Origin: an uncultured Bacteroidales bacterium
GTDB taxonomy: Bacteria > Bacteroidota > Bacteroidia > Bacteroidales > P3
Direction: 5' to 3'
DNA: 64,000 nucleotides
NCBI GenBank assembly: GCA_937906975.1
Contig: CALCUN010000027.1
Coordinates: 1 to 64,000, forward strand
Positions 1,981 to 56,144 of the stretch are shown in pieces. The stretch's first letter is position 1. Each line of letters starts with the position of its first letter. The notes under the pieces are model-generated. The model did not search any database. It worked only from the letters and a program-made list of their open reading frames with translations, and was not told where the DNA came from. The position numbers and the translations under genes are program-made.

Positions 1981-2069
1981 CTTTGATTTAGAAAATTTTT
2001 TCTTTGCTTTTTTTATTTTTTTCTTTGCTTTTTTTCAAAAAAGCAAAGACTTTTTTTTCTTTATCTTTG
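1981..2069. repeat. 21-bp periodic CTTTG array, 5 cores
   Basis: Cores CTTTG at 1981, 2002, 2023, 2065 and CAAAG at 2044 are spaced exactly 21 bp, separated by 16-nt spacers that are almost only A and T. It fills the divergent region between the U32 gene and the ECF sigma operon. Cores 3 and 4 form a 13-bp perfect hairpin with a 2-nt loop (2022-2049). The last core lies inside the TATCTTTG -7 box of the sigma gene. The first unit differs at one base from the unit at 23061. Confidence 0.75.
2062..2069 (+). promoter_or_regulatory. -7 box (TATCTTTG) for the ECF sigma operon
   Basis: TAnnTTTG match about 50 nt before the chosen ATG at 2121, overlapping the last core of the 21-bp array. No convincing -33 element. 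Confidence 0.5.
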
Positions 2070-2120
2070 TGTAACATTTTTCTAAGTAAAACGACTACTT
2101 TACAAAGCACAATTTTTAAA

Positions 2121-2606
2121 ATGAAGATTGAAGAATTTAAAAAAATAATTACTACTTATCAACCTAAATTACACGCTTTTGCAAATTCTATTCTAAGAAA
2201 TGATTTTGCAAGTGAGGATATTGTGCAGGAGGTTTTTTGTTTTCTTTGGGAAAAACGAGAAAAAATAAATACTATTGATAATATTGAGGCTTTTCTTGTA
2301 CACATTTGCAAATGTAAGTGTGTGGATTATTTAAGAAAAACAAAAAAAGAAGTCTTGGAAGAGGAAATTATGAATTTGAATTATGAAGAATTTAATGAAG
2401 ATAGTGAAGAAAGATATAATAGACTCCTTAAACTAATAAATCAACTTCCCGAAAACCAACAAGAGTTATTGCGTCAAAAATATTTTAACAATAAAAGAAT
2501 AAGAGAAATTTCAAAAGAAACAGGAATGAGTGAGGGAAATATTCGCACAACACTTTCTCGTGCTTACACAAGATTAAGAGATTTAATAACGAAAACAAAA
2601 ATCTAA
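2121..2606 (+). CDS. ECF-type RNA polymerase sigma factor
   Basis: A 161-residue extracytoplasmic-function sigma factor. Region 2 (FASEDIVQEVFCFLWEKR and ICKCKCVDYLRK) binds core polymerase and the -10 region; region 4 (LPENQQELLRQKYF, then a helix-turn-helix SKETGMSEGNIRTTLSRA) reads the -35 region. The open frame extends upstream to 2004, but that stretch is only translated 21-bp A/T repeat and lies over the promoter, so I start at ATG 2121. Downstream genes follow at 3 and 13 bp and look like an anti-sigma-like membrane protein and an outer-membrane protein, a usual cell-envelope stress arrangement. Confidence 0.9.
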   Translation: MKIEEFKKIITTYQPKLHAFANSILRNDFASEDIVQEVFCFLWEKREKINTIDNIEAFLVHICKCKCVDYLRKTKKEVLEEEIMNLNYEEFNEDSEERYNRLLKLINQLPENQQELLRQKYFNNKRIREISKETGMSEGNIRTTLSRAYTRLRDLITKTKI

Positions 2607-2609
2607 GTT

Positions 2610-3182: not shown

Positions 3183-3195
3183 AACTTAGATTGAT

Positions 3196-4116: not shown

Positions 4117-4126
4117 TTTTTGAGTT

Positions 4127-4834: not shown

Positions 4835-4841
4835 AACAAAG

Positions 4842-4849: not shown

Positions 4850-4876
4850 CGAAGTTTTTTGATTGTTTTATGCTTT

Positions 4877-5513: not shown

Positions 5514-6560
5514 TTATTTTTTAACATATCCTGTACTTCTTCCTTTACCTACTTTTTCAATATAACCACTTTCTAATAGTTCGTTAAGAGTTCGCTCAAT
5601 TGTTGTTTGACTAATATCGGGGCAAAGTATGAGAATATCTGATTTCCTCACTATTCCGAGTTTTTTATCAAAGACTGATTTTACTCTATCTGCTTTTGAA
5701 GATTTTGGTTGTTGCAAATGTTCTATTCTGTCTTGGAATTCTTTATATGCTTTCAAAATAATACTTAAATAATATTTTACAAACGCTGTATAATCACTCT
5801 TATTCTCGTGCCAATTGACTGAACTATCATGCAAAGCCTGATAATAAATTTCCTTTGTCTTTTCTATCAACATCTCAATGCTTATATATTTTCCTACAAA
5901 GTAAGACATACGATAAAGTAACAACAATGTAAGTAAACGACTCATACGTCCGTTGCCATCATTAAAAGGGTGAATACATAAAAAATCAAGAATAAACATC
6001 GGTATCAATAATAAAGGATCATATTCTCCCTTTTCAATAGCATTATTAAACTCATTGCAAAGATTTTCCATTGCTTCTGAGGTTTGAAATGCTGACACAG
6101 GAATAAATCTTACTCTTTCTTGCCCATCTTTTCCTGTTTCGGCTATTATATTGTCTGCATTTTTGTATTTTCCTCCACTATCTGTTCCGCTAAAACTATA
6201 CAAATCTCGATGAAGTTGCAAAATATTATTTGGACGTAAGGCAATGTAATAATAATTGTCGTGGATAGTTGCTAATACTTCTCTATATCCAGCTATTTCT
6301 TCTTCACTTCTATTTCTTGGTTCGGTCTTTTTCATTACCAAATCTTCTAATCGTTCATCAGAAGTGTAAATTCCTTCAATTTTATTTGACGATTTGGTGC
6401 TTTGAATTTTGGCAATATCTAATAAAGCAGTCAATACATCTGATTTTGCATCAACATACCTTTCTTGTTTGCCTTTAAATTCGTGTAAAGCCGACAATAT
6501 ATTGACTATATCAGCAGTCAATAACTGTTTTGGTGCATTTTTGTAATCAAATATGTGCAT
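5514..6560 (-). CDS. Fic family protein (AMP-transferase type)
   Basis: 348 residues. The catalytic Fic loop is complete: HPFNDGNGRMSR fits HxFx(D/E)GNGRxxR, so transfer of AMP (or another nucleotide) to a target hydroxyl is expected. An N-terminal helix holds SSNKIEG, matching the (S/T)xxxE(G/N) inhibitory motif, which makes this an autoinhibited class II Fic protein. The C-terminus is a winged helix (ILCPDISQTTIERTLNELLESGYI), so it may also bind DNA. I prefer ATG at 6560 over an upstream TTG at 6578. It has its own -7 box and lies between a decayed regulator and a type III restriction system. Confidence 0.88.
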   Translation of the reverse strand: MHIFDYKNAPKQLLTADIVNILSALHEFKGKQERYVDAKSDVLTALLDIAKIQSTKSSNKIEGIYTSDERLEDLVMKKTEPRNRSEEEIAGYREVLATIHDNYYYIALRPNNILQLHRDLYSFSGTDSGGKYKNADNIIAETGKDGQERVRFIPVSAFQTSEAMENLCNEFNNAIEKGEYDPLLLIPMFILDFLCIHPFNDGNGRMSRLLTLLLLYRMSYFVGKYISIEMLIEKTKEIYYQALHDSSVNWHENKSDYTAFVKYYLSIILKAYKEFQDRIEHLQQPKSSKADRVKSVFDKKLGIVRKSDILILCPDISQTTIERTLNELLESGYIEKVGKGRSTGYVKK

Positions 6561-6582
6561 TACTATTCCGTTTTTCAAACTA

Positions 6583-6590
6583 CAAAATTA
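6583..6590 (-). promoter_or_regulatory. -7 box (TAATTTTG) for the Fic gene
   Basis: TAnnTTTG match 22 nt before the ATG at 6560; no -33 box at canonical spacing. Confidence 0.4.
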
Positions 6591-6626
6591 CTTTATTTTT
6601 GATTATTTTCTGCATCAAAACAAAAA

Positions 6627-6661
6627 AATCTGCATCATTTAAACTAAAAATGATGCAGATT
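6627..6661 (-). terminator. terminator of the res-mod operon
   Basis: 14-bp perfect inverted repeat (6627-6640 with 6648-6661), 7-nt loop, followed on the minus strand by TTTTTGTTTT. Starts 8 nt after the res stop codon. Confidence 0.8.
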
Positions 6662-6669
6662 AGGGAGTT

Positions 6670-9552
6670 TTATCCAAAATTAAGCCTACCCGAAGAGTAA
6701 TCCCCACTTAATACGCTTCTCTTGCAAATATCATCAATATCTGCCCCTGTTCCTTTATAGGAGTAAAAGACATTTTCGCTCAAAAGCACATATTCCCATT
6801 CTCTTTCCATTCTTTTGTCTTTTGAAACAGCGTTTATACTTTTGCACCAACTTACAGCAGCAGTTTTTTTCGCTCTTACATTAGGCTGACTTATGTTGTT
6901 AGTTGCCTTAGTCTCTATAATGTAGATTTTTTCCTTTGTTTTCACAATGAAATCTGGGCTATACCAAGCAATAATTCCATCATCTCGCAAATACGAAACT
7001 TTGGAAAAACTATGTTTAAACTCATCTATTTTCAACCAACTCTCAACTTTGCCGTCTTTTTCCAAGAACTCACTAAAAGCCTTTTCAAATCCACCTTTAT
7101 TACTTGGCCAAGCGTATCGCTCATATATTGTTTTACAAGACGGATTAGAATAGTTTTCTCTCATTTTCAAAGTTTTTACAGAAGAAAACCAAACCCTCTC
7201 TACCTCAGCATCAGTAAAAATAGGATTTTCCGTTAAGTTGAAAATCAAACTGTTTAATTGCCTTACAATATGTTGAGTAACGCTACCTTGATTAGAAAGA
7301 AGAATTTTCCAATCGTTGTTTTCAAAAGGGTCAAAATCGCAATCAAATAATTTCGTTCTTATATATTGGTCTGCAATTCTAATAATATCTGCACTGAAAA
7401 CTTGTAAATTAACATTGTTTCCTTTGTTTCTTCTTCGTTTATTAATATCTGTTCTTCCAATGCTATTTACAAGTTTTTGCAAATAAATGTTGTAGGATTT
7501 AGAATTAAAAAGATTAGCAGTTATTTCCAATTCTCCGAACACTGTTTTTACAGTTACTTCTGTTGCAACAAAGACCTCGGTTTTAGAAACAAGCACCGAT
7601 CTTAAAGTTTCTAAACTATGCTCGGTATAGGGTTTGAGTTGATTAACATCTATTTGAGAAAAATCAATTTCTTCTTCACTATCCTTTATTATTTTAGGAA
7701 TATACATATCCCATTGCGAGAAATCCTCTTTCAAACCTACCGTTATTAAATCTCCTGTTACTCGTTCTGTTTCTTCTATTTCGCTTTCAATTTCTCCAAT
7801 CTCAAAACCCTCTCCCGAAAGGTTATTCCAAAAATCAATAAATTTTGGATGTTCTATAATAAAAAGAAGATCAAGCAAAGCCTTAGGCTCAGTTTTCTTT
7901 ACCAAAAGAGCATCTCTTATTTCCTTTTTAGTTTCTGCATATTCAGGTTCTCGAAACATTAGCCTCAAACCACGACCTACAATTTGTTCTAAAAGAATGC
8001 TCGATTCCGCAGCACGCAAAGGAACTATTACGCAAACATTATTCACATCAAAACCTTCTCTTAACATAAGCACCGACACAATTACTTTTGGTAAAGCGTG
8101 CTTATCAATGTTGAAAAGCTTTTCTTTGATTTCTTTCCACTCTGTTTCCTTAACCTCTCCCTTAGAATCGGAATCTATTCTCAAAACAGCCTCTTTTGCT
8201 AATCCATATTCAGCACCTGTTAAGAAAGATTCCACTTCTTTTGAAACGGAAGTGTCTTCACAAAGCACCAACATTTTTGGGTGATGAGGTGCTTTAAATC
8301 CTTTTTCTAATTGTTCCAATCGGCTAAGTCCTGCTTTCAACATTATTTTTTGCCCATCGCTCAATCCTATAACCCTACCTCTTTCATCTCTTTCTGCATA
8401 ATAATCCAATCCCTCTAAGTCTGTAAGTTCTTTTCTGCGGTCTAAACTAATTGTTTTTACCAATCCTTCGTTTATTGCAGTCTTTAATTCAAAGTCAGAC
8501 ACTATATGAGGAAAAAATATCTTGCGTTCATTTCGTCCCGATCCTTTTTGCAAGTATGGAGTTGCGGTAAAGTCTATTTGAAAACAAGTTTTATCATCTC
8601 CTTCCATTATTTTGTTCAATCCTTCTTGCCAAACCAAGTCGTTATTGTGAATATGATGAGCCTCATCATTGATAATCATTATATCTTTTAACGATTGCAA
8701 GAATTGCATCTCTTTCCCCCTTGAATATTGTGCATCAAGAGTGTCTAAACTATTGCCATTGCTTACTCCGGGTGTTAAAGGATTTAATTCATACGCCATT
8801 TTGGCGAACTCATCTTTGTAATTCTTCTCTGTTTTGTCCTCAAACAAATGCCAATTCGTTATAGCAATCAAGCCATTTCCCGTAATTTTACTACCAATTC
8901 CCTCTTCCTTACTCACAGTGTTGTTTTGAATGAAAGAAAACACTTCTTCACGATAATTTTCAGGAATAAACAAATCCTTATTTCTTACAAAATCGTTAGT
9001 CGAAAACTCTCTTCCGTCTCCGTTTTCGCTTAATCGTCCCTTGTAAGCATCGAGCAAACGATCGTAAACAATAAGTCCCGGTGCTACGATAAGGAAATTT
9101 TTTGTGAAACGACCACTTTTCTCCTCTTCATTCTTTGCATTAAGAATCTGCCATATCAAAAGAGCGTGCATAACCCAAGTTTTGCCTGTGCCTGTTGCCA
9201 TTTTAACAAGATATTTCGGCAAATCATATCTGCTTTCTTTAAGAGAATTGCGAGTTTCTTTTGCTCCAAACAAATCGCTTTCAAGAAGTAAATCAGGTGC
9301 TACTTGCTCATAAATCCCCAAAACATTGTTTATTTTCAACACCTCGTGAAGATAGATTATGTTTAGTATGCTTTGCTTTTGTCCTTTGTGAAAATTGAAT
9401 TGTCGTTGAGAGACAAAAGGCTCGCAAAACCAAAATCGCAACAATTCTTTTGTGATTGGGCTGACTTTTTCAAATAATTCTCCGCTTTCAAACTCCTTTT
9501 CAACAACCTCCCAAATGCGTTTTGCTAAGCGTAATGATACATTGTTTTGCAT
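6670..9552 (-). CDS. res: type III restriction enzyme, Res subunit
   Basis: A 960-residue restriction subunit. The superfamily 2 helicase core has Walker A as MATGTGKTWVMHALL (about residue 117) and Walker B as IINDEAHHIHNND (about 290), a DFTATPYL motif III, and the second RecA domain with EQIVGRGLRL (motif VI). The C-terminus carries a PD-(D/E)xK nuclease: YSPDFIVK ... IYIIETKATNN. It needs Mod to recognise DNA, uses ATP to move, and cuts when two unmethylated sites are present. The gene starts 6 bp after mod and shares its transcript. All visible motifs are intact. Confidence 0.93.
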   Translation of the reverse strand: MQNNVSLRLAKRIWEVVEKEFESGELFEKVSPITKELLRFWFCEPFVSQRQFNFHKGQKQSILNIIYLHEVLKINNVLGIYEQVAPDLLLESDLFGAKETRNSLKESRYDLPKYLVKMATGTGKTWVMHALLIWQILNAKNEEEKSGRFTKNFLIVAPGLIVYDRLLDAYKGRLSENGDGREFSTNDFVRNKDLFIPENYREEVFSFIQNNTVSKEEGIGSKITGNGLIAITNWHLFEDKTEKNYKDEFAKMAYELNPLTPGVSNGNSLDTLDAQYSRGKEMQFLQSLKDIMIINDEAHHIHNNDLVWQEGLNKIMEGDDKTCFQIDFTATPYLQKGSGRNERKIFFPHIVSDFELKTAINEGLVKTISLDRRKELTDLEGLDYYAERDERGRVIGLSDGQKIMLKAGLSRLEQLEKGFKAPHHPKMLVLCEDTSVSKEVESFLTGAEYGLAKEAVLRIDSDSKGEVKETEWKEIKEKLFNIDKHALPKVIVSVLMLREGFDVNNVCVIVPLRAAESSILLEQIVGRGLRLMFREPEYAETKKEIRDALLVKKTEPKALLDLLFIIEHPKFIDFWNNLSGEGFEIGEIESEIEETERVTGDLITVGLKEDFSQWDMYIPKIIKDSEEEIDFSQIDVNQLKPYTEHSLETLRSVLVSKTEVFVATEVTVKTVFGELEITANLFNSKSYNIYLQKLVNSIGRTDINKRRRNKGNNVNLQVFSADIIRIADQYIRTKLFDCDFDPFENNDWKILLSNQGSVTQHIVRQLNSLIFNLTENPIFTDAEVERVWFSSVKTLKMRENYSNPSCKTIYERYAWPSNKGGFEKAFSEFLEKDGKVESWLKIDEFKHSFSKVSYLRDDGIIAWYSPDFIVKTKEKIYIIETKATNNISQPNVRAKKTAAVSWCKSINAVSKDKRMEREWEYVLLSENVFYSYKGTGADIDDICKRSVLSGDYSSGRLNFG

Positions 9553-9558
9553 AATCGT

Positions 9559-11493
9559 TTATTTTAGTTTTTTAATCACAATACTCTCTAACCCGAAAAC
9601 ATCAACGGCTTTCACACAAACTGTTCTTTCTGCTTTTTTGCTTACTCTCAATGTAGCGGAGTAAACACAGTGCAAAGCATCTCCATCATTTTCTGTGTTT
9701 TGACGATAGTCTTGCCAAATAGAACGAAAAGTCTCTCCGTCATAATCAGGGTCTATGCTCCAATATTCAATTAAAGACAAAGGATCGTTAGTCATTATTT
9801 CTTCTAATGTTTGTTTGTCTTTTTCGTCAAGCGGAATTGCATCAGGGGAGTGAAGAATGTAATTTCCTAATTCTACTTTTAGTTCGTCTTCTTCTTCGTC
9901 CCAAGATTTTAATTCTATGTTTTTCAAAGTCAAATATTGCAAAGAGGTAAATCTTATGCTACCTGAATCAATCAATTTTCCTAATCCGTTTCTTCTTAAT
10001 CTATCAAGTAAATCAGGAGGTATTGAAAGCACTTCAACAGAGTCTCTATATAATTCTAAACCTTCTGAAATGTCGAAATAATAGTTCCAAGAAAGGACAA
10101 CGCATTTTGACCAACCGCCTCCCAAAAGGTTATTCTTTGCCTCAAATGCTTTTTTCAAAGTGTTTTTGCTTGTGAATTTATTAGGGGAATCAACAAAAAC
10201 CAATGTTTTTCCTCCTTTTATGTAGCCCCAACGTCTATCGTCAAGCCTTTCTCTTTCAAAAGGCAAAGCACCATAAAGCTTCAAAACAACTTCACAAAGG
10301 TCGCCTACTCGATTTATTTTATTCAAAGCAAAAGCCTCTTTGTTGTAATCGCCTATTGCTTGATAAAGAAAAGGTTTTACGTTTGTGTCAATATTCATAT
10401 CTATTAAACGCTTTCTTATTACAAGATTTGAAGGCTTACCAATATCGGTTGTAATCCACCGTCTGCCCAACTTTTCTGCAACAGCCGCCGTTGTTCCACT
10501 TCCACCAAAGAAATCACAAACGAGGTCTCCTTCGTTGCTGCTTGCTTTGATGATGCGTTCTAGGAGGGCTTCGGGCTTTTGGGTAGCGTAGCCAGTTCGT
10601 TGTGGATCCTTTTGTTGAATATGACTGATGTCAAACCATACATCAGGTAATAATACAGGTTCATCGTCATAGTATTTGTATATTTTGCCGGCTGATTTAA
10701 TGGTTCTGTATATTCTGCCATTTTCATCAACTTCCTTTTTAAGGTTATTCCATTTATCTACAACGCTACCACAGCTTTGGCATATATTTCGAGGGAATGA
10801 AGCCCCATTAAGATTAAAAATATAGTTGTTACTTTTTGCATAAATATATATGGAGTCGTGTTTCCTAGAAAAACTTGACTGGGGAATTCCGCCACTTTGA
10901 TAATGCCAAATTATTTCATTTATTATGTTGCTCTTTCCGAAAATATCGTCCAATAAAATTTTCATATACGCTCCAACGTGCCAATCGATATGTACATATA
11001 TGCTTCCTTTGTCGGAAAGTAATTCTCGCATTAGCAGTAATCTCGGGTACATATATTCTAAATAAGACACTGTTCCTTTTTGCCAAAGGTCCGAATAGCC
11101 AAATTGCTCAAAGGTTGTAGGCTTTTGCGTTATTTCATTACCGGGTAATGTGATTTTTGTACGATAATCTGCCTTGCTGTCAAAGGGAGGGTCGATGTAA
11201 ATCAAATCTACCTTGCCTCGAAGTGCCTCTAAATTGCTCGATTTGTCGCCTGTGAGCAAGGCTTGCATAGCAAGAAGATTATCTCCGTAGATAAGACGGT
11301 TACACCACTTTGATTCAATTTCCTGAGGGTTAGTTCCCTTCCACAGACCGCTTGAATCCTTACAAGGTAAGACCATTTCGTTGGTTTGCAGGCTTATTCT
11401 ACTGCCCGCATTCATTTTTTCGAGTATATTTTCTGCCTCTTTGCGTCCTTCTTTTGCAATACGAGGCAATTCCTCTATAAGACTTTTACTCAT
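9559..11493 (-). CDS. mod: type III restriction-modification DNA methyltransferase, Mod subunit
   Basis: A 644-residue N6-adenine methyltransferase with beta-class motif order: catalytic DPPF ([13 protein letters not shown], about residue 100) comes before the AdoMet-binding motif ([16 protein letters not shown], about 340). The region between, with [11 protein letters not shown] and a CQSCG pair, should contain the target-recognition part. Mod gives sequence specificity to both methylation and cutting. No simple-sequence repeat suggesting phase variation is visible inside the gene. It is preceded by a 520-bp gap with a structured leader, a -7 box and an eight-unit repeat array. Confidence 0.93.
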
Positions 11494-11786: not shown

Positions 11787-11953
11787 TTATCTCTTTGAGA
11801 TAATTTTTTATCACAAAGAAAAGAAAAAATACCCCTTTGTGGTAATCCGATTACTTCTTTGAGGTAGAAGTATTACCACAAAGAGGTAATGTCTCTACCT
11901 CAAAGAAGTAAAAAAATAAGACAAAGAAAAATTTTTCTAATTCTTTGTCTTAT
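11787..11953. repeat. eight-unit periodic array of quasi-palindromes, 21-22 bp pitch
   Basis: Cores CTTTG or CAAAG start at 11793, 11814, 11835, 11857, 11879, 11901, 11922 and 11943, so steps are 21, 21, 22, 22, 22, 21, 21. Around six of the cores lies a 17-bp near-palindrome like TTAYCnC-www-GnGRTAA; the clearest are TTATCTCTTTGAGATAA (11787-11803) and TTACCACAAAGAGGTAA (11873-11889). Units pair with each other: 11851-11868 with 11894-11911 (18 bp) and 11835-11846 with 11872-11883 (12 bp), interleaved. It lies just upstream of the res-mod promoter. The remainder of the 11494-12014 gap holds no gene that I can see. Confidence 0.75.
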
Positions 11954-11956
11954 TTT
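11913..11956 (-). terminator. terminator after the HEPN/membrane-protein unit
   Basis: 16-bp perfect inverted repeat (11913-11928 with 11941-11956), 12-nt loop, followed on the minus strand by a run of T. It is made from units 7 and 8 of the periodic array and may work in both directions. Confidence 0.6.
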
Positions 11957-12014: not shown

Positions 12015-12675
12015 TTATAATGTTTTTAATAATTTTTTTGTTTGTTGTATTACTTTAAATAATTCTTTTGCTAATATTTCTCTTCCTGAAGCATTATCAA
12101 TACCTGGAATACTTAAAGAAAAGGCATTTAATAATGCAAAATAGTTACAATCTTTTATATTTTCTATTGTTTCTAATTGATTAGCAGATAAATATTCTTT
12201 GTACACCAGAATACCATCAATTATTTTAATTATATTATCTCGTTGAGATTTCAAGTAATTTAATACACTCATTTTATGAACACAATACGCATATGTACAA
12301 TTACAATACGTACTTATTGACACAGAAGAGAATTGCTGAACTATATTTCTTTCTATTAAATTTATCTCATTGTAATCGTTAACAGGAAATACACTTTTTG
12401 CACTTCCATTTAATCTTCCAATAATCCTTTTTATTTTTTCTGAAATAATTACTCGCATTTTATTTCGCTTTACTATATAAGGGCAATAAGACGTTAATAC
12501 ATAAAATATAAGTCCAGCTAAATAACTATACGAAAGATTAAGTATTACTTTATTGATTTTATAGTAATTTTCTGATACTCCTATATGCCAAAACCAATCT
12601 AATTCAATATAAACCTATCGAATAAATACATAAAAGAGTAATAATGATGATAATTACACTAATTAGTTTATTCAT
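12015..12675 (-). pseudogene. two-helix membrane protein, frameshifted (3' ORF 12015-12458)
   Basis: The 147-residue ORF at 12015-12458 is only the end of a longer gene. Reading upstream in the same frame there is no stop until 12617. In the next frame an ATG at 12675 starts MNKLISVIIIIITLLCIYSI, a perfect first membrane helix, which ends at a stop at 12604-12606. A one-base shift near 12605-12612 joins the two into about 219 residues with helix 1 (about 4-23), helix 2 (about 47-68, LSYSYLAGLIFYVLTSY) and a soluble C-terminal domain. The ATG overlaps the HEPN stop by 8 bp, so the two were translationally coupled. I do not recognise the family. A sequencing error, programmed shift or true decay are all possible. 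Confidence 0.65.
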
Positions 12676-22962: not shown

Positions 22963-22996
22963 CTAAATTTATTTTTATCAACAAAATTTGAAACTG

Positions 22997-23039: not shown

Positions 23040-23107
23040 CTAAGAAAAAAATTTTTTTCTCTTTGCTTTAGAAAATTTTTTCTTAGGAATATTTTTCTAA
23101 AGCTAAG
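23040..23107. repeat. 21-bp periodic array, 4 cores
   Basis: Cores CTAAG 23040, CTTTG 23061, CTTAG 23082 and CTAAG 23103 are exactly 21 bp apart with A/T-rich spacers. Units 1 and 3 lie in a 19-bp perfect inverted repeat (23032-23050 with 23076-23094). It sits between the gpsA terminator and the promoter of the next gene. Confidence 0.75.
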
Positions 23108-23127: not shown

Positions 23128-23165
23128 AAATAAGGCTGGATTGTTAAAAAAATCCAGCCTTATTT
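23128..23165 (-). terminator. terminator of gpsA
   Basis: 15-bp perfect inverted repeat (23128-23142 with 23151-23165), 8-nt loop, 16 nt after the gpsA stop. Confidence 0.85.
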
Positions 23166-25901: not shown

Positions 25902-28676
25902 TTAATGTGCTACTAACCAATTTTCTCCTTCGTTTATGCTTACTTCTATCGGCACTTCTAATTGTAAAGCGTTAAGCATCTGTTGTTTTACTATTGTTTT
26001 AACTGTTTCAAGTTCTGGTTTATAGACATCAAACACTAATTCGTCATGAACTTGTAGTATCATCTTGGATTGAAGTGAGTTTTTCTCAAATTCTTTGTGG
26101 ATATTTATCATCGCAATCTTTATCATATCGGCACTGCTTGCTTGGATTGGCATATTGACTGCGTTGCGTTGTGCAAAGTTTCTTATGTTTGCATTAGCAG
26201 AGTGAAGGTCGGGCAAATAGCGTCTTCGTCCGCATATACTTTCTGCATAGCCTTTTTCGGTGGCTGTTTCAATGCAAGTGGCAATGTATTGTTTTATTTG
26301 TGGATATGAGTAGAAATATTGATCAATTAACCCTTGTGCTTCTTTCCTTGTTATGTGTAATTGTTCGGAAAGGCCAAAGGCTGATATTCCGTATATGATT
26401 CCAAAATTAACGCTCTTTGCATTGCGTCTCATTTCTTGTGTTATTTCTTGTGGTGGTAGCATGTAAATTTTTGAAGCTGTGGAAAGGTGAATGTCTTCTC
26501 CTGTGTGGAAGGCTTGACACAAGGCTTGGTCTTTGCTAAGTGAGGCAATTATTCTAAGCTCTATTTGAGAATAATCGGCTGCTAAAAGTGTGTGTTTGTC
26601 ATCTTGCGGAATGAAGCATGAGCGTATTTGCTTTCCGAGTTCTGTTCTTATGGGAATGTTTTGTAAGTTAGGACTTTCTGAGGCTAAACGGCCTGTTGAA
26701 GTTGTGGCTTGTTTGTAATGAGTATGTATTTTGTTTGTTGCAGAGTTCACTATCTCTGGAAGAGCGTCTACGTATGTGCTTTTTAGTTTTGTTAGTGAAC
26801 GATATTCTAATATTAATGGTATGATTGGGTGAATGTTTATTAGTTTTTGCAATACGTCTTCGGAGGTGGAGTATTGTTTTGTTTGGGTTTTTTTGATTTT
26901 TTTGTCTGAGGATATTTGCAATTCGTCAAAGAGTATTATTCCTAATTGTTTTGGTGATGAAATATTAAATTCTTTGCCTGCTAATTGATAGATTCTTTCT
27001 TCTAATTGTTGTTTTTGTTCTTGGAGTAATTGAGAAAATTTGTGGAGTTGTGTTGTGTCTATTCTCACGCCTTGTCTTTCCATGCCTAAAAGCACATCTA
27101 CAAGTGGCATTTCTATGTTATAGAAAAGTTCTAATAAACCGTTTTGTTTTAATTCTTCTTCTAAGATTGGTTTTAAGCCAAAGGTTACGTCTGCATCTTC
27201 AACTGCGTATTCGGTTAAGAGGTCTGCATTTAGTTTTTCTATTTTTATTGGTTCTTTTATCGTTTTTCCAAATACGGTTTCAAAGTCTATCATTGTGTAT
27301 TCTAAGTATTTTTCACTTAGAATGTCTAATTTGTGTCGCGATTCTGGATCTATGAGATAGTGGGCTAAGAGAGTGTCAAAGGTTTTGCCTTTTACTTCTA
27401 TGCCATAGTTGAGCAGTACGTTTTTATCAAATTTTAAATTGTGTGCTACTTTTTCAATGGTTTCGTTTTCAAAGAGTGGTTTTATTATTTCTAAGAAATC
27501 TTTTTGTAGGTCTTTGCTTTGTGGAAAGAAAACAAAGAATCCTTTATGTCTTTGACTGACTAAGGATATTCCTAATAGTTCACAGTCTATTTCTAAGCCT
27601 GTTGTTTCGGTGTCAAAGGCGATAAGTGTTTCTTGAAGCATTGAGTTTATGACTTCTTTTAATTCTTCTGCACTGTGAATTGCGGTATAGGTGTGAGGAA
27701 CTTCTTTGTAGGTTGGGTAAGTTGCAAGATTGAAAAGCGTTGGCTCGGAAACTGTGGTGTTGAATAGGTCTATGGTTGGTTGTGGTTGCGGGATTTGGTA
27801 GTGAGTGTTGAATCTTTTTGCAAATGTCGTAAATTCCAATTCGTTAAATATTTGATTGCAAGCTTGAATGTCGGGTTGTGTGATTGCAAGTTCGTCTTCG
27901 TTTAGTTCTATTGGTGCATCGATAATGATTGTTGCTAATTGTTTGCTTTGGATTGCTAGGTCTTTGTTTTCTTCTATTGCTTTACGGATTGATTTGCTTT
28001 CTATTTTGTCGCTATTTTCTAAAATATTTTCTATTGATGAGAATTGTTGTATTAGTGCTTTTGCTTTCTTTTCTCCTATTGAGGGTACGCCAGGAATGTT
28101 GTCGGAGCTATCTCCCCAAAGTCCTAAGATGTCTATTACTTGTAAAGGATTTGTGATTTCAAAGCGTTCCAACACCTCAGCAACTCCCCATATTTCATTT
28201 GGATTTGCTCCTCTACTTAGTTTAAGCATCTTTATGTTTTCTTCAACTAATTGGGCATAGTCTTTATCTGGCGTTACCATGAATACTTCGTATCCTTTTG
28301 CGGAGGCTTTCTTTGCAATAGTGCCTATTACATCGTCTGCTTCATATCCTTCCTTACAAAGAAGGGGAATGTTCATTGCTTGAATAATGTTTTTTATGAT
28401 TGGAATTGCTTCTCTTATCTCTTCGGGCATTGCTTGTCGGTTTGCCTTGTATTGTTCGTATTGAATGTGTCGAAATGTTGGCCCTTGAAGGTCAAAGGCT
28501 ATGCCAAGATGTGAGGGCTTGTATTGTTTTATTATGTCTAAAAGTGTGTTGCAAAATCCTAAAACGGCAGATACGTTTTGTCCTTTTGAGTTTATTCTTG
28601 GGTTTTTATTGAGTGCATAAAAGGCTCTGTATATTACCGCCATTGCATCTATCAAGTATAGTGTTTTCTTTTCCAT
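25902..28676 (-). CDS. polA: DNA polymerase I
   Basis: 924 residues with all three domains. The 5' nuclease covers about 1-290 (LGIAFDLQGPTFRH, EADDVIGTIA, GDSSDNIPG). The 3'-5' exonuclease appears intact: FDTETTGLEID, HNLKFDKNVL and YAVEDADV. The polymerase A domain holds LLAADYSQIELRI (motif A), RRNAKSVNFGIIYG (motif B) and QVHDELVFD (motif C). Fills gaps in Okazaki-fragment processing and repair. Own promoter directly after the tnaA terminator. Confidence 0.96.
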   Translation of the reverse strand: MEKKTLYLIDAMAVIYRAFYALNKNPRINSKGQNVSAVLGFCNTLLDIIKQYKPSHLGIAFDLQGPTFRHIQYEQYKANRQAMPEEIREAIPIIKNIIQAMNIPLLCKEGYEADDVIGTIAKKASAKGYEVFMVTPDKDYAQLVEENIKMLKLSRGANPNEIWGVAEVLERFEITNPLQVIDILGLWGDSSDNIPGVPSIGEKKAKALIQQFSSIENILENSDKIESKSIRKAIEENKDLAIQSKQLATIIIDAPIELNEDELAITQPDIQACNQIFNELEFTTFAKRFNTHYQIPQPQPTIDLFNTTVSEPTLFNLATYPTYKEVPHTYTAIHSAEELKEVINSMLQETLIAFDTETTGLEIDCELLGISLVSQRHKGFFVFFPQSKDLQKDFLEIIKPLFENETIEKVAHNLKFDKNVLLNYGIEVKGKTFDTLLAHYLIDPESRHKLDILSEKYLEYTMIDFETVFGKTIKEPIKIEKLNADLLTEYAVEDADVTFGLKPILEEELKQNGLLELFYNIEMPLVDVLLGMERQGVRIDTTQLHKFSQLLQEQKQQLEERIYQLAGKEFNISSPKQLGIILFDELQISSDKKIKKTQTKQYSTSEDVLQKLINIHPIIPLILEYRSLTKLKSTYVDALPEIVNSATNKIHTHYKQATTSTGRLASESPNLQNIPIRTELGKQIRSCFIPQDDKHTLLAADYSQIELRIIASLSKDQALCQAFHTGEDIHLSTASKIYMLPPQEITQEMRRNAKSVNFGIIYGISAFGLSEQLHITRKEAQGLIDQYFYSYPQIKQYIATCIETATEKGYAESICGRRRYLPDLHSANANIRNFAQRNAVNMPIQASSADMIKIAMINIHKEFEKNSLQSKMILQVHDELVFDVYKPELETVKTIVKQQMLNALQLEVPIEVSINEGENWLVAH

Positions 28677-30242: not shown

Positions 30243-31229
30243 TTAATTTTGTGCTACAAATGTCCCTATTTCAACGTTTAAATCTGAAATAAATTTTAAA
30301 TTTGGTATTTTTTCTTGTAAGTTTTTTTTGTTTTTACTGTTGTAGCCTATTGCGTAATTGATTTCTCTTGGGTTTACTAAAATTGTTTTTGTATCAAGCG
30401 GGAGCTTCTCAAATTTTTCTTGCCAAAGTCGTGTCAATACAAGTTCTTTGAATGATACGTGAAAAGGTCCTGCTAATAATTGTTCTCCATTGATTAAGGC
30501 TTCTGAAGGGTGTAGTCCTACGCGTAGGATTGTTATGTCTGTTTGCGAGAATATTTTATAGATTTCAGCTGTCCATTCTACTGCTTCTTCAAGAGAAAGG
30601 GCTTTGTATTGACCTGCTCGGTATAGGTCTGCTAATTCGGTATTGTTTATTACAAGTGTAGGATATATTCTCGTGCTTTCTGCTCCTAAGTCTAAGATTT
30701 TTTTTGCTGTTTCTTTGGATTTTTCAACTGTGTCTAAGGGTAATCCTATCATCATTTGAAGTCCAAGAGAAAATCCATAACTTTTGATAAGGCGAGAGGC
30801 AGTTTCTACATCTTTAACTGTGTGTCCACGTTTTGAAAAAGCTAACACTTCTTCGTTTAAGGATTGTGCTCCTAATTCAATGTCGCTTACATTATAGCGT
30901 TTTAAAATATTTAAGATTTTTTCGTTGATATAATCGGGACGTGTAGAGATTCTTATACTTTTAATATCACCTTGCTCAATATATGGCTGTACTATCTTAA
31001 GATATGTTATCATATCCTCTTCATCAATCCCCGTGAAACTGCCTCCGAAAAAGGCAAGTTCCACGTGCGAGGGCTTAATGAATGTTGTAAGATGTTGTTC
31101 TATAATTTGTCTTACTTCTTCTGGTTTTACTGCTTGTAATTGCCCAGAAATATGTCGCTGATTGCAATATATACACCTATTAGGACATGCCAATTCTGGA
31201 ATAAAAATAGGTATATTATAATGCTTCAT
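30243..31229 (-). CDS. radical SAM protein, Elp3-like
   Basis: 328 residues. The radical SAM cluster motif is CPNRCIYC (CxxxCxxC, about residues 14-21), followed by AFFGGSFTGID and the glycine-rich and strand motifs of an Elp3/MiaB/NifB-type core (STRPDYIN, ELGAQSLNEEVL, MMIGLPLDT). No acetyltransferase domain is present, so it is not a full Elp3; substrate unknown. Last gene of the long run that begins at gltX, 6 bp after wzc. Confidence 0.82.
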   Translation of the reverse strand: MKHYNIPIFIPELACPNRCIYCNQRHISGQLQAVKPEEVRQIIEQHLTTFIKPSHVELAFFGGSFTGIDEEDMITYLKIVQPYIEQGDIKSIRISTRPDYINEKILNILKRYNVSDIELGAQSLNEEVLAFSKRGHTVKDVETASRLIKSYGFSLGLQMMIGLPLDTVEKSKETAKKILDLGAESTRIYPTLVINNTELADLYRAGQYKALSLEEAVEWTAEIYKIFSQTDITILRVGLHPSEALINGEQLLAGPFHVSFKELVLTRLWQEKFEKLPLDTKTILVNPREINYAIGYNSKNKKNLQEKIPNLKFISDLNVEIGTFVAQN

Positions 31230-42047: not shown

Positions 42048-43586
42048 TTATCTACCCCAACTTTCTCTATCTAAGTTCCTGTAAGTTATAGCTTCCGCTA
42101 AATGAGAATCCTGAATATCCTCACATTTCTCCAAGTCTGCAATTGTACGTGCAACCTTCAAAATTCTATCGTATGCTCTTGCGGAAAGACCTAAACGTTC
42201 CATAACATTACGCAAAAGTTCCATTCCAGAGGGCTGAATCTTACAGAACTTTTTCATTAAAGCCGTATTCATTTGTGCATTACAATGAATATCGGGATAG
42301 TCTTTAAATCTTTCTTGTTGTATTTTTCTTGCTTCAACCACGCGTTTTCTAATCACCTCACTCGACTCTCCTTCTTTCAAAGTAGAGAGTTCTTTGAAGG
42401 GAACAGGCACTACCTCTAACTGAATATCGATTCTGTCTAACAAAGGACCTGAAACTTTATTAAGATACTTGTTTACAGCACCTAATGCACAGGTACAGGC
42501 TTGCGTTGGGTGGTTATAATATCCACAAGGACAAGGATTCATCGCCGCAACTAACATAAAACTTGCTGGATATTCGCTTGTCTGTTTTGTTCTCGCAATC
42601 GTAATTTTTCTTTCCTCCATTGGCTGACGCAAAACCTCCAATACATTTCGCTTAAACTCAGGAAGTTCGTCAAGAAATAGCACACCATTGTGAGCAAGTG
42701 AAATTTCCCCAGGTTGAGGATAAGAGCCTCCTCCTACAAGTGCAGTATCGCTAATAGTATGGTGAGGATTTCTAAAGGGACGTACAGAAACAATAGACTG
42801 ATAACTATTCATTCTACCTGCAACTGAGTGAATCTTAGTTGTTTCCAATGCTTCCTCTATTGTCAAAGGAGGAAGAATTGAAGGTAATCGTTTTGCAAGC
42901 ATTGTTTTCCCACTTCCAGGAGAGCCTACCATAAGAATATTATGCGAACCCGCAGCAGCAACCTCCATTGCACGTTTTACGCTTTCTTGTCCCTTAACAT
43001 CAATGAAATCAAACTCATAATTATCCAAACTTTTTGCAAATTCCTCTTGAATATCTATGAAAGTACGCTCCAAAGAATCCTTCCCGTCAAAAAAATTAAT
43101 TACATCTAAAATGGTATCTGCCCCAAACACCTCCAAACCCGTTACAATAGCAGCCTCTTTTGCATTCGCTTTTGGTAAGATTATTCCCTTGAAACCTTGC
43201 TTCTTAGCTTCCAAAGCAATAGGCAAAGCTCCTTTAATTTTATTCAAAGACCCGTCAAGCGACAACTCGCCCATAATTATATAATCTGCAAGTTTTTCCC
43301 CACGAATCTGCTCCGAAGCACCAAGAATGCCGATAGCCAAAGGCAAATCATAAGCCGAGCCTTCTTTTTTCAAGTCGGCAGGAGCCATATTTATAACTAT
43401 CTTTTTTCCAGGTATTTTATAACCATAATAATTCAAAGCAGAAGCAATTCTTTGCTGACTTTCCTTCACTGCATTGTCGGGAAGGCCAACTAAAAGAAAG
43501 TTAATTCCCTTATCTACATTTACTTCTATTGTAATAGTTGTAGCAACAATTCCTGAAATTGCAGAGCCATAAACCTTAATCAGCAT
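42048..43586 (-). CDS. comM: YifB/ComM family AAA ATPase (Mg chelatase-like)
   Basis: 512 residues. N-terminal Lon-like fold (LLVGLPDNAVKESQQRI), AAA core with Walker A GSPGSGKTMLAKRLPS and Walker B GVLFLDELPEF, a cysteine cluster (PCPCGYY ... CTCA) and the Mg_chelatase_C domain (LSARAYDRILKVARTIADL). In naturally competent bacteria ComM is a branch-migration helicase for transformation. dprA and cinA lie in the same window, consistent with DNA uptake ability. Confidence 0.92.
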   Translation of the reverse strand: MLIKVYGSAISGIVATTITIEVNVDKGINFLLVGLPDNAVKESQQRIASALNYYGYKIPGKKIVINMAPADLKKEGSAYDLPLAIGILGASEQIRGEKLADYIIMGELSLDGSLNKIKGALPIALEAKKQGFKGIILPKANAKEAAIVTGLEVFGADTILDVINFFDGKDSLERTFIDIQEEFAKSLDNYEFDFIDVKGQESVKRAMEVAAAGSHNILMVGSPGSGKTMLAKRLPSILPPLTIEEALETTKIHSVAGRMNSYQSIVSVRPFRNPHHTISDTALVGGGSYPQPGEISLAHNGVLFLDELPEFKRNVLEVLRQPMEERKITIARTKQTSEYPASFMLVAAMNPCPCGYYNHPTQACTCALGAVNKYLNKVSGPLLDRIDIQLEVVPVPFKELSTLKEGESSEVIRKRVVEARKIQQERFKDYPDIHCNAQMNTALMKKFCKIQPSGMELLRNVMERLGLSARAYDRILKVARTIADLEKCEDIQDSHLAEAITYRNLDRESWGR

Positions 43587-43899
43587 TTGTATTTATGTTT
43601 TTATGTTTTAAACAATCTATTAGCTTATCCATTTGTTTTGGATTATTCATATAGTATTCTAAACTTTGATTGTATTCTTGATTGGTTACATTGTATTTTT
43701 TTAAAATGTCGCTATTGAATTGTTTAAGTATGTTTTCTTTGTTTTCTGACTCAGAATAAGAGATTTGCACTAAGGCTTCTGCTTTTTTTGAGTCGATAAT
43801 AATTGAAACCATTGTTTCAATATCAATGTAATTCTCAGCTTTTTTGCAAGAGGTTAAAAAAAATAAACTTGCAAGTAAAAATACGCTTAAATATTTCAT
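43576..43899 (-). CDS. DUF4296-like lipoprotein
   Basis: 107 residues. Lipoprotein signal MKYLSVFLLASLFFLTSC, then a helical domain with repeated short helices ending near KQMDKLIDCLKHK. The size and layout fit the DUF4296 lipoproteins of Bacteroidales; function unknown. Overlaps comM by 11 bp and the nucleoside phosphorylase stop by 4 bp, so it is embedded in one transcript. Confidence 0.6.
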   Translation of the reverse strand: MKYLSVFLLASLFFLTSCKKAENYIDIETMVSIIIDSKKAEALVQISYSESENKENILKQFNSDILKKYNVTNQEYNQSLEYYMNNPKQMDKLIDCLKHKNINTNAD

Positions 43900-44771
43900 A
43901 TTCTTTCTAATACTAATTCTATTAATTTTTTCATAGAAGGGTGGTAATCTTCTGCAAATTCGCCTGTTTCTCTATTTGCTATCACATTACAAATTGTTAA
44001 AACATTGTGTCCAAGATTTTTACCTAAGGCATAGAGTGAAGAAGTCTCCATTTCATAGTTAGCTGCCTTTATTCCATTAAAAGAATAACCACCTATTTTT
44101 GAGTTAATTGTGCTATCGGCTAAATCAATTCTTATTTTTCTACCTTGTGGTCCGTAAAAGCCAGGGGCTGTTATAGTAATCGCTTTGTGCATATCGAAGG
44201 CAATGTTTTCCAGCAAGTTATCGCTACACTCAACTCCGTAAGGCTTTGGCAAATCCTTTGACCAATTCATATATTGCACAAAACCATCGGCTAATTCTTT
44301 GATTAAAACTCCAGGATTGTTTTTATAAAAATACATAATGCCGTCAATCCCAATCACATACTTAGAGGCTATGTATTGATTTACGCCAATTTCTTTATGA
44401 AAGCAACCACAAGTACCTAATCTGACTAAATTGAGTTTACGTTTTATGGATTTTTCTTGACGAGTGTTTAAATCTATATTCACACATGCGTCTAACTCGG
44501 TGAGAACTATGTCAATATTATCTACTCCCATTCCCGTAGAAATAGCAGTTATTGGTTTGCCTTTGTATTCTCCTGTACAAGAGTGTATTTCTCGGTTTTG
44601 AATTTCATATTTCTTGGTATCAAAAAAAGAAGATACTAAATCAACTCTTGCAGGATCGCCAACAAGAATGATATTATCAGCTAACATTTCTGGTTTTAAG
44701 CGAATATGATACATAGAATTATCGGAGGCTAAAACAAGTTCCGAACTCGCTAAATTATCTCTTTGATTCAT
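43896..44771 (-). CDS. nucleoside phosphorylase (uridine phosphorylase-like)
   Basis: 291 residues of the PNP/UDP phosphorylase family: phosphate-binding VGDPARVDLVSSFF, AISTGMGVDNIDIVLTEL, LVRLGTCGCF, and NYEMETSSLYAL near the ribose site. It should cleave a nucleoside with phosphate to base and ribose 1-phosphate, most likely uridine. The N-terminus (MNQRDN) is encoded by the first unit of the 21-bp array that fills the gap to dprA. Confidence 0.85.
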   Translation of the reverse strand: MNQRDNLASSELVLASDNSMYHIRLKPEMLADNIILVGDPARVDLVSSFFDTKKYEIQNREIHSCTGEYKGKPITAISTGMGVDNIDIVLTELDACVNIDLNTRQEKSIKRKLNLVRLGTCGCFHKEIGVNQYIASKYVIGIDGIMYFYKNNPGVLIKELADGFVQYMNWSKDLPKPYGVECSDNLLENIAFDMHKAITITAPGFYGPQGRKIRIDLADSTINSKIGGYSFNGIKAANYEMETSSLYALGKNLGHNVLTICNVIANRETGEFAEDYHPSMKKLIELVLERI

Positions 44772-44849
44772 TTTTTTATCTCTTTGATTTATTTTTTTAT
44801 TCCTTAGCTTTAATTTTTTTTCTCTTAGCTTTAATTTTTTTTCTCTTAG
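44761..44849. repeat. 21-bp periodic array, 5 cores, running into both flanking genes
   Basis: Cores CTTTG 44761 and 44782, CTTAG 44803, 44824 and 44845, exactly 21 bp apart. Units 3 and 4 are identical over all 21 bp. The array occupies the whole gap between dprA and the nucleoside phosphorylase. The first core overlaps codons 3-4 of the phosphorylase, and the last overlaps the dprA stop codon. Confidence 0.8.
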
Positions 44850-52265: not shown

Positions 52266-52270
52266 ATTTT

Positions 52271-53158: not shown

Positions 53159-53166
53159 ACCTATTT

Positions 53167-55104
53167 TTATTTTGAAACCGTTGTTTTATTTTCTATAATC
53201 GTGTTGTTGTATTGTTGAATAAAAGCTTGCGTAAATTTAATGTGCTTTTGAGTTATTTCTTGTTTTTGATTTGCTATATTGTTTTTTAGACCTTTATCTT
53301 TTTCTGGTTCAAAAAGTTCTATCGTTCCATCTTGTTTATATTTGCTTAGATAGTCTCCCATCATTAAGATATACTCTCCGTTTGTGTAATAGATGTAATA
53401 TTTTTCTTTTTCAGAGAATGGACTTCTGCCAAAGGTAAATATTTTTTCGTTTTCTATATTTAACATATCTATTACTGTTGGATAAACATCTATTTGTTGA
53501 ACATATTGTTTGCTCACAAGGTTTGATTTCATTTTTGGGTGATAAACAATCATTGGAATCTTGAATAAGCCTAATTGAGTTTTGAAATCCTTACTTTCTG
53601 TTAAGCCACTATGGTCTGAGGTAATGACAAATAATGTGTTTTCAAACCAATCGCATTTTGAGGCTTCGTTAAAAAATCTTTTTAGAGCGTAATCTGTATA
53701 GGAAACAGTCTCATGAACTATCAAAGTGCCTTTTGAGAATTTGTTTTTGTGTTGAGCAGGAATTGTGTAAGGGTGATGAGAAGACAAAGTAAAGAATGCT
53801 GCATGGAAAGGTTTAGTTAGTGTGTCTATTTGTTTAACACAGTATTGCAAGAAAGGTTCATCGAAAATTCCCCAATTACCATCGTAATCTTTATCGTCAT
53901 TATACTCATCTTTTCCATAATAATATTGATAGCCTACTTTGCGTGTGTAATTGTCAAAGCCCATTGTGCCGTTGTATCCACCATGGAAAAAGGCGGTTGT
54001 GTAGTTTTGCTCTTTCAAGCTAGAGGCTATTGAACCTAATTGATTGTTTCCATAAACGCTTGTAAGATAACTCTCCTCCATCATAACAGGTAAGGAAGAA
54101 ATTACAGCAGGAATGCCATCTATTGACTTCTTTCCGTTGGACAATCCTTGGAAAACAAGCGAGTGTTGTGCCAAAGAATCTAAGAAAGGTGCATAACTCA
54201 CTCCGTTTTCATTGTATGTTTTTAAGTATTCGGCAGAAAAACTTTCTAATATTATGACACATACATTTGTTTTACCTATTTCAAGAGGTGTTGTAAAGAG
54301 AGTGTCTGCCCAATTTGAGGTTTCAAAATCTGTTATCGGAGAATAAATTTTTTCTAACTCTTCTTGCGAATAAAATTCCTTCTTTTCAAGACTTGGTTTA
54401 CCCCAAGTACGATAAAGAGTGAAAGGAGTATTTAAAACCAATACTGTATTTTGTGTTGTGGTGTATTGACCTGCGTGCATAAGTCCAAGAGGGCGTGTTT
54501 GCAAACCGCCTCTTTGCAAAAGCACTAACAAAGGCAAGGCAAGAATCAACACAATACTTCTTTTGAAAACCAAAACTTTTGAAAATTTTTCTTTGCGTGG
54601 TTGTAGTTTCTTATTAAGTAAAGAGTTTACTACAATCAATGCTATTAGCAAACAAACGAAAACTGTTGCTATATGCCAATAATCTCTAAGGAATTGTGGG
54701 ATTAGTTCGTTGAAATCTCCACCTACGCCCAAGTATCTTGTAATATCGGCAGTTAATCTTTTGAAAGAAAATCTATAATAGCCTGCATCTATGAGATTAA
54801 CAGCCATCATAAATATGTTAGCAATTAAATAAAGAGTGTTAGATGTGATTTTAAACCATTTTTTGTGCCATTGATTAACAAGAGGCAAAAGATTTAAAAG
54901 CAGGTATGGCAATAAAAATATGCTAATTGAAGAAAGGGCATAACGAGTGCAACCAATAAAAATATTAAACCCTTCTTTTATTCCCTCTATTTGAAAGAAA
55001 CTATTGTTGAATAGGTAAAAAAACAACTGTGTTATATAGATACAAACTAAGGATAGTAAGTATTTGTAGGCTACTTGTTTGTAATGAGTTGATTTCTTTG
55101 TCAT
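53167..55104 (-). CDS. LTA synthase-like membrane sulfatase/phosphotransferase
   Basis: 645 residues. About five membrane helices in residues 1-200 precede an extracellular sulfatase-fold domain: VCVIILESFSAEYL (metal Glu), NGKKSIDGIPAV (catalytic hydroxyl region), AFFHGGYNGTMGFDNY, LSSHHPYTIP and VITSDHSGL. Family members transfer phosphoglycerol or phosphoethanolamine groups, or cleave them; Bacteroidota homologues are poorly defined. Between gldB (8 bp) and the lipid kinase. Confidence 0.87.
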   Translation of the reverse strand: MTKKSTHYKQVAYKYLLSLVCIYITQLFFYLFNNSFFQIEGIKEGFNIFIGCTRYALSSISIFLLPYLLLNLLPLVNQWHKKWFKITSNTLYLIANIFMMAVNLIDAGYYRFSFKRLTADITRYLGVGGDFNELIPQFLRDYWHIATVFVCLLIALIVVNSLLNKKLQPRKEKFSKVLVFKRSIVLILALPLLVLLQRGGLQTRPLGLMHAGQYTTTQNTVLVLNTPFTLYRTWGKPSLEKKEFYSQEELEKIYSPITDFETSNWADTLFTTPLEIGKTNVCVIILESFSAEYLKTYNENGVSYAPFLDSLAQHSLVFQGLSNGKKSIDGIPAVISSLPVMMEESYLTSVYGNNQLGSIASSLKEQNYTTAFFHGGYNGTMGFDNYTRKVGYQYYYGKDEYNDDKDYDGNWGIFDEPFLQYCVKQIDTLTKPFHAAFFTLSSHHPYTIPAQHKNKFSKGTLIVHETVSYTDYALKRFFNEASKCDWFENTLFVITSDHSGLTESKDFKTQLGLFKIPMIVYHPKMKSNLVSKQYVQQIDVYPTVIDMLNIENEKIFTFGRSPFSEKEKYYIYYTNGEYILMMGDYLSKYKQDGTIELFEPEKDKGLKNNIANQKQEITQKHIKFTQAFIQQYNNTIIENKTTVSK

Positions 55105-55112
55105 CTGTATTA

Positions 55113-56144
55113 TTATTTTCTTGGTTTATATTTTGATTGTTGTAAGATAAGTTTTGAATCCAAGGTATTAAATAAACTATCTATGCTGATTGAGTTTTCT
55201 TTCATGTAGGATTGTACAATTTTATAGCCTATGTAATTTCCTATTCTTGCAGGAGAGTTTGCTATGTTTTTGGTTGAAGGCCCTGGGGCTATAAGATGGA
55301 AATATTTTGTGCGGTCTTTGTTGTATAGAAGTTGGTTTTCTATCATATATGCCCAGATATTTGCTTCGTTTTGTTCAACCCATTCCAATTGTTCTTTGGT
55401 GTATTCTAATATATAGTTGAGTGGTTTTTCTTCAAGCACAGCCTCTGTTGCGTATATGTATTTTCCTTCTTCTAAAATGCAGTCTAAGAGTGTTGCCTCT
55501 GGATTTTGACTTTGTAAAGGTATGTTTCTGAAAGTGATTTCTTTCAAATATGTATTTACATAGTGAGGTGCAATATTTTCTTTGCCAAGTGAGGTGTGTA
55601 GATATTGAGGAATGGTTTTGTAGTATGGGTGATTTGACAATTTTTCTATTGAGTATAGGTCTATGCTTATTGCACTAAATTCGGGATAGACCAATATTCT
55701 GTTTTGAAACGCCTGAGAATATTCGGCAGGTCCTACAATCAAGGTGTAAATCTCAGAGTTGATTGTATCTTGCTTTATTTGCTTGATTTCATGTAAGGCA
55801 TTTGAGAGTTCTTCTTCTAAGTTTTTTAAATCGGGATATTGGATTTTTACAAGATTATAGGCGTTGTTCATTTCTTTGTCTTTGATAAATTCTTTGACAA
55901 CATTGAGATAGTTTGTGTCCTCAAGACTTGTGGCAAACATTGGCTCATATTGTTTTTCTATACTTAAAAGATATTTATCTACATCTTTGCTCTTATTGGC
56001 TGAAAATAAGGCTTGTTCAAAGCGATGAATACTCACGTATTTTTTTTCTTTGCTTTCTTGGCACGAAGCTAAGAAAAAAATTATTAAAGCTAAGAAAAAA
56101 AATTTTTTTTCAAAGAAAAATTTTCTTGTTCTTTTATGTTGCAT
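55113..56144 (-). CDS. GldB-type lipoprotein
   Basis: 343 residues, lipoprotein signal ending in FFLASC. The rest matches GldB-like proteins (IHRFEQALF near the start, SIDLYSIEKLSNHPYYKTIPQYL in the middle, NSPARIGNYIGYKIVQSYM near the end). GldB is required for type IX secretion and gliding in Flavobacteria; here it fits the several type IX cargo proteins. Codons about 10-32, covering the signal peptide, are encoded by a 21-bp repeat array, giving a Phe/Lys/Leu heptad-like N-terminus. Confidence 0.72.
   Translation of the reverse strand: MQHKRTRKFFFEKKFFFLALIIFFLASCQESKEKKYVSIHRFEQALFSANKSKDVDKYLLSIEKQYEPMFATSLEDTNYLNVVKEFIKDKEMNNAYNLVKIQYPDLKNLEEELSNALHEIKQIKQDTINSEIYTLIVGPAEYSQAFQNRILVYPEFSAISIDLYSIEKLSNHPYYKTIPQYLHTSLGKENIAPHYVNTYLKEITFRNIPLQSQNPEATLLDCILEEGKYIYATEAVLEEKPLNYILEYTKEQLEWVEQNEANIWAYMIENQLLYNKDRTKYFHLIAPGPSTKNIANSPARIGNYIGYKIVQSYMKENSISIDSLFNTLDSKLILQQSKYKPRK
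56048..56115. repeat. 21-bp periodic array inside the gldB signal-peptide region, 4 cores
   Basis: Cores CTTTG 56048, CTAAG 56069 and 56090, CAAAG 56111, exactly 21 bp apart. Since 21 bp is seven codons the frame stays open. The unit at 56090 is nearly the same as the one at 23040. Confidence 0.75.

Follow-up and report, generated by a model that had tools for sequence, protein, structure and literature searches.

Why would a five-base word return at intervals of exactly two helical turns at several separate places in one bacterial genome, sometimes between genes and sometimes inside them? The question is raised by a window of 64,000 nucleotides (the whole stretch of DNA that was analysed: contig CALCUN010000027.1 of assembly GCA_937906975.1, positions 1 to 64,000) from an uncultured Bacteroidales bacterium. 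The window is gene-dense and chromosome-like (G+C 33%), it encodes GldB and a type IX sorting domain, and homologues of its nucleoside phosphorylase (about 60% identity) and sigma factor (76%) are labelled Bacteroidales. An earlier, sequence-only reading had described five arrays of pentamer cores in it, stepping by 21 bp throughout, or by 21 or 22 in an eight-unit array, and all of them are present; chains of cores also occur in genes at 27470, 30692 and 43203, which that reading had not recorded. The explanation that we favour, with about as much doubt as confidence, is a clade-specific family of short 21-bp (two-turn) arrays in which the core is contacted by a DNA-binding protein lined up along one face of the DNA. 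The arrays and chains are as follows (ORF, open reading frame):

Array 1, 1981..2069: five cores at a step of 21 (CTTTG, CTTTG, CTTTG, CAAAG, CTTTG); the spacer that holds them is divergent, with a U32 peptidase gene (minus strand, ORF start 1936) on one side and, on the other, a gene of the sigma-70 family (plus strand, start 2121).
Array 2, 11793..11947: eight cores (starts 11793-11943), steps 21/21/22/22/22/21/21; between the gene at 12015-12458 and an N6/N4 methylase gene (9559-11493), with long inverted repeats within.
Array 3, 23040..23107: four cores, step 21; flanked by ORF 21226-22929 and by a glycerol-3-phosphate dehydrogenase gene, which has a terminator-like hairpin (23128-23165).
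Array 4, 44761..44849: five cores in a single orientation, step 21; covers the stop codon of dprA and the start codon (44771, minus strand) of the nucleoside phosphorylase gene (43896-44771).
Array 5, 56048..56115: four cores, step 21; in the part of gldB (ORF 55113-56144, minus strand) that codes for the lipoprotein signal peptide, at codons 10-33.
polA chain, 27470..27537: four cores, step 21; in the polA ORF 25902-28676, minus strand.
Three-core chain, 30692..30738: step 21; in a radical SAM gene (30243-31229), minus strand.
Three-core chain, 43203..43249: step 21; in a YifB-like ATPase gene (42048-43586), minus strand.

Arrays 1-3 and most of array 4 lie between genes; array 5, one edge of array 4 (both taken up by the earlier reading without mention of coding) and the polA chain are coding, and the arrays are not confined to intergenic DNA. 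Three further cores in polA, at 27281, 27302 and 27365, all fall on the 21-bp grid of the 27470 chain. The two three-core chains may have arisen by chance.

The word itself is well defined. Once oriented, the core reads CTT[T/A]G (hereafter CTTWG, W being A or T) in 26/26 units of the five arrays, the two strands carrying 16 and 10 of them, and the other class of CWWWG words, which makes up 286 of the 761 matches in the window, accounts for 0/26 array units. The base preceding the core is T in 24 of the 26. Flipped units hold their core on the common 21-bp grid, and such an orientation-free grid is expected if the helix face is what mainly matters. The flanks are variable (unit-to-unit identity over the first four cores, 0.34-0.81). 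The core may be the contact of a row-forming protein, with one protomer or dimer for every two turns; contact once per two turns would keep the spacing strict while letting the spacers drift.

Such chains are rare in shuffled sequence of the same composition: the three-core CWWWG pattern has 16 matches in the window versus 0.06 expected, with at most 1 in any of 100 dinucleotide shuffles. For non-coding DNA, the 22 spacers of at least 47 bases were each randomised by dinucleotide shuffle or by an order-3 Markov model (2000 rounds each); they hold four chains of three or more cores versus 0.003 (dinucleotide) or 0.013 (Markov), and three chains of four or more versus 0 or 0.0005. For coding DNA, synonymous shuffles (n=300) that preserve the protein were applied to 53 hand-picked coding sequences (CDS), in which four chains of three or more cores are seen versus 0.303 (reached by 1/300 shuffles) and two four-core chains versus 0 (0/300). 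Three chains remain versus 0.270 when gldB is left out (1/300), and two versus 0.267 when polA is left out as well; since 7/300 shuffles match these last two, the three-core chains taken alone are weak. The period also emerges when all cores are considered: the 475 CTTWG cores form 35 pairs at distance 21, versus a mean of 4.3 over distances 10-109, the next peaks being the harmonics 42, 63 and 84. Outside all chains there are 10 pairs at 21, an addition to the earlier reading, and other distances up to 109 give at most 8. In a scan of every pentamer with at least 40 copies over distances 10-63 (21,006 tests), the top eight entries are all at 20-22 bp and in words that occur in array units (AAAAA at 21, 22 and 20; GCTAA, CAAAG, CTAAG, AGAAA and GAAAA at 21).

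The sites in genes carry a control of their own, the encoded protein. Array 5 encodes the GldB signal peptide up to and beyond a conserved cysteine, which we take to be that of the lipobox. Only two registers among 19,794 residues (52 CDS) permit four cores, one in gldB and one in polA, and both are filled. The relatives of GldB and of the phosphorylase were compared as proteins, so that the core compatibility of their DNA is judged from residues. In the gldB clade, 14 of 17 proteins permit four cores in register, including 6/6 of those at 82-90% identity (P0010-P0015), which permit a fifth at register 8. Residues within the core triplets have changed in these six (SKE to NKE and two cases of FLA to FFV in P0010-P0014, FFE to SLG in P0015), and CTTTG, CTTAG or CAAAG is still possible. 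When the new residues are permuted over the changed places, the cores survive in 0.4-1.0% of trials for P0010-P0014 and in 4.3% for P0015; with new residues at random places, a weaker control, they survive in 2.3-3.8% and 11.6%, respectively. Among 202 other fetched proteins, many of them homologous to one another, there is none whose first 45 residues are compatible with even three cores. In gldB (55113-56144, codons 17-26), the second and third units bear the identical double change FLA to FFV in P0010-P0014, as if one unit had been copied from the other.

Kinship between units is apparent elsewhere as well. Among the 435 pairs that can be formed from 30 units (the four of polA included), 13 match at 13 or more of 16 flank bases, versus 2.0 in column shuffles (largest 8 in 500). 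The units at 1981 and 23061, said by the sequence-only reading to be one base apart, are so as 21-mers, with no such match expected by chance, and the likeness that it saw between 23040 and 56090 amounts to two differences. Inverted partner units stand two steps apart in arrays 2 and 3, and array 3 contains the inverted repeat 23030-23054/23072-23096. Because units are related and two gldB units share an identical double change, we suggest that units are copied within and between arrays, which could renew the arrays. Beyond the arrays, TTTCTTWG is found 37 times versus 18.1 and TTCTTWGMTTT 5 times versus 0.9; a dispersed family of single units was rejected, the extended motif being at most mildly enriched there.

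Does the array 4 locus behave similarly in relatives? The start position of the phosphorylase is common to the homologues P0062-P0065 and P0067. P0066 permits two cores 22 nt apart. In P0068 (79% identity), the place of array 4 is taken by an N-terminal extension of seven-residue (21-nt) repeats, KKINSGN, in which 17/36 residues are equal at offset 7, no other offset between 3 and 14 giving more than 9. P0068 thus keeps the period without CTTWG, suggesting that the pitch can outlast the word, in the sense of "constant size, variable sequence".

Several observations weigh against a row-binding protein. By Tandem Repeats Finder (TRF), which detects array 4 and parts of arrays 1 and 2 and misses arrays 3 and 5, the detected ones are partly ordinary tandem duplications. 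The repeat of P0068 cannot hold a chain of cores, and only 3/6 close phosphorylase relatives (P0063, P0064 and P0066) can have a core at the start codon. In the gldB clade, the full set of four cores is incompatible with three proteins, P0004, P0050 and P0051. An A to T change costs P0050 one of them; since its nearest kin is P0015, a core was retained in one lineage and lost in the other. Because P0010-P0014 share their history, the gldB test amounts to about two lineages, and it takes DNA from protein.

Among the rival explanations, neutral spread, a rather improbable account, would make the arrays a satellite whose 21-bp unit multiplied by slippage and by template switching between inverted copies, was tolerated between genes, or in genes since 21 nt are seven codons, and now decays from an ancestral sequence of which the core is a remnant. 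The relatedness of units within and between arrays, the inverted partners in arrays 2 and 3, the TRF signal and the same period in different sequence in P0068 all speak for it, as does the length of the array-bearing GldB signal peptide, which exceeds that of the five nearest array-less relatives P0016-P0020 (some more distant relatives match or surpass it). A decaying satellite does not explain why four-core chains in gldB and polA exceed synonymous shuffles, however, nor why residue changes in gldB are core-compatible; moreover, cores are invariant where spacers differ (in part an effect of how the search selects), and the arrays end abruptly, with 2 of 10 flanking unit positions one mismatch off a core and the other 8 two or more. 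Each array might instead be the cooperative operator of a single transcription regulator, placed before the gene that it regulates. This we regard as unlikely: arrays 1, 3 and 4 do lie before or at gene starts (array 3 between the terminator-like hairpin and the next gene), and dyad arms surround the cores of array 2 (mean 4.4/7 pairs versus 2.1 over all array positions), but such arms are clear in array 2 only, the genes adjoining the arrays have no evident common function and one chain is inside polA.

Two further possibilities concern structure rather than sequence-specific binding. That the arrays work in the transcript as hairpins serving as terminators or attenuators is very unlikely in our view. 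Arrays 2, 3 and 1 fold beyond shuffles (z -8.9 to -11.7; -4.1 and -5.2; -2.5 and -3.3) and the last two units of array 2 (11913-11956) form a perfect 16-bp inverted repeat followed by a T run on the minus strand, perhaps the terminator of the 12015-12458 gene (not listed by the terminator scan); array 4, however, shows no excess fold (z +0.3 on both strands), array 5 reaches z -2.2 (coding strand -1.2), no Rfam family was found in the window, and nothing in RNA structure calls for a 21-bp grid. The sequence-only reading had proposed either a protein binding as a row or phased bent DNA. A protein row is the best surviving idea, the pitch being real and specific, and bending as the common design was rejected, since curvature is above shuffles in only 2 of 6 stretches: in a wedge model (200 shuffles per stretch, end-to-end shortness as the measure), array 2 (1/200 shuffles as short) and array 4 (11/200) are predicted to be curved, and no such curvature is predicted for arrays 1, 3 and 5 or for the polA chain (156, 155, 152 and 89 of 200). 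Some of ten array-less spacers (ratio 0.81-0.97) are as curved as array 4 (0.84), and phased bends without a specific protein are the least credible account, one to which we give hardly any weight.

How does the family relate to known repeats? The sequence-only reading knew of no named family with this design, but a described class comes close: Subirana and Messeguer report bacterial repeats of 20-23 nt, constant in size and variable in sequence, in many bacterial groups (PMC8161180). A member of the class has at least four repeats, no fewer than 60% of which share one length (+/-1), is generally not coding and keeps a short signal (TCGCGG in B. weihaiensis); the repeats resemble one another enough to be recognised as tandem repeats, and the families are specific to a species and spread over its genome. 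The authors make the same remark on two helical turns and propose a protein polymerising on DNA (PMC8161180). The arrays here have 4-8 units with every step 21 or 22 (counted by a program other than that of the authors), and they keep a short signal among variable flanks at several loci. They appear to differ in having both orientations on one grid, and they differ in being short with a spacer drift so strong that TRF catches only parts of them, in having one array and one chain inside genes with signs of upkeep, and in their Bacteroidales host. This class is the closest known kind, with the CTTWG arrays as a variant in which cores point both ways, arrays are short, spacers have drifted strongly and some sites are in genes.

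Within the Bacteroidales, the BrickBuilt minisatellite MITEs (miniature inverted-repeat transposable elements) of Porphyromonas gingivalis are described as 23-nt tandem units at several loci, all intergenic, mostly with a leader, a tail or both and with terminal inverted repeats, 3 of 19 having neither leader nor tail (PMC4596501). On that description the likeness lies in the order, in short tandem units between genes and in the several loci; the arrays here have a period of 21, not 23, are also found in genes, and show no shared flank. A common leader, tail or terminal inverted repeat was rejected: when the 150 bases to the left and right of every array are compared, no word longer than 11 bases recurs between arrays, and inverted words across a single array reach at most 8. 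In the iteron arrays of plasmids and phages, which are located at the origin beside rep, one protein binds to sites spaced by about two turns. The CTTWG arrays have similar two-turn sites but differ by their several loci, their mixed orientation and the want of an adjoining initiator gene, no replication initiator being named among the 40 proteins (out of 53 CDS) scanned with Pfam and NCBIfam. Rickettsia palindromic elements and cyanobacterial small dispersed repeats are short repeats tolerated in coding sequence as single insertions; they too sit in genes, whereas the CTTWG chains are phase-locked rows of pentamers. We met no published description of CTTWG arrays in Bacteroidales, in searches that were not aimed at that word and largely did not cover subscription journals.

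Kin were also sought at the DNA level. A CinA scan of genome contigs gave one remote Neomarinimicrobiota locus, and when this genome was searched for the GldB family together with its 100 relatives, the outcome was 0/101. Four-core CTTWG chains are found at 120 or more loci in viral contigs; among the matches listed, 99 are in an open frame of at least 300 nt, 86/120 have a unit-to-unit identity of at least 75% (0.34-0.81 in the window arrays) and 14/120 loci have more than one chain. Fifteen viral stretches inspected by eye (9 of the 120 listed and 6 others) were judged to be near-uniform, short-unit or coding repeats, while the remaining loci may include a relative; searches of viral contigs with the restriction helicase and with a GldB alignment gave none. 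No DNA match was found in plasmids for array 4 or window positions 1-25000, nor in phages for array 2; in plasmid tblastn searches, the best matches listed for DprA and the methylase are at 39% and 48.9%, beside nine uninspected methylase records at 60-80%.

The surroundings of the arrays add some detail. The sigma-70 family gene, read from the ATG at 2121, encodes 161 aa, equal in length to the 15 closest homologues, and the homologue search found no protein that reads through array 1. Beyond this array, at 2082 and 2103, stands one more pair of cores with a 21-bp step, off the register of the array. Array 2 lies in the long spacer before the methylase gene, which ends a row (5514-11493) of a Fic-domain gene, a type III-like restriction helicase and the DNA methylase. 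ORF 21226-22929, next to array 3, carries the type IX sorting domain at a score under Pfam's cut-off; upstream of it on the minus strand (22930-22980), a stretch resembling a signal peptide, KKILLFLCTILCANVLLAQ, is preceded by a stop, and neither ATG, GTG nor TTG lies between the two, pointing to either a rare start codon or an error.

A row-binding protein would account together for the pitch, the indifference to orientation, the drift of the spacers and the upkeep in genes. Going beyond binding, such a row would probably pack, bridge or repress the local DNA. More tentatively, and as a possibility that we consider short of likely, an undescribed chromosome protein of the Bacteroidales could read CTT[T/A]G once per two turns in either orientation, with selection shaping both synonymous and amino-acid choice in gldB and polA. 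The function of bacterial two-turn repeats was left open by those who described them. The CTTWG arrays offer a defined pentamer, an orientation-free grid and sites in genes where the genetic code is a built-in control, and the idea of a protein thereby becomes directly testable.

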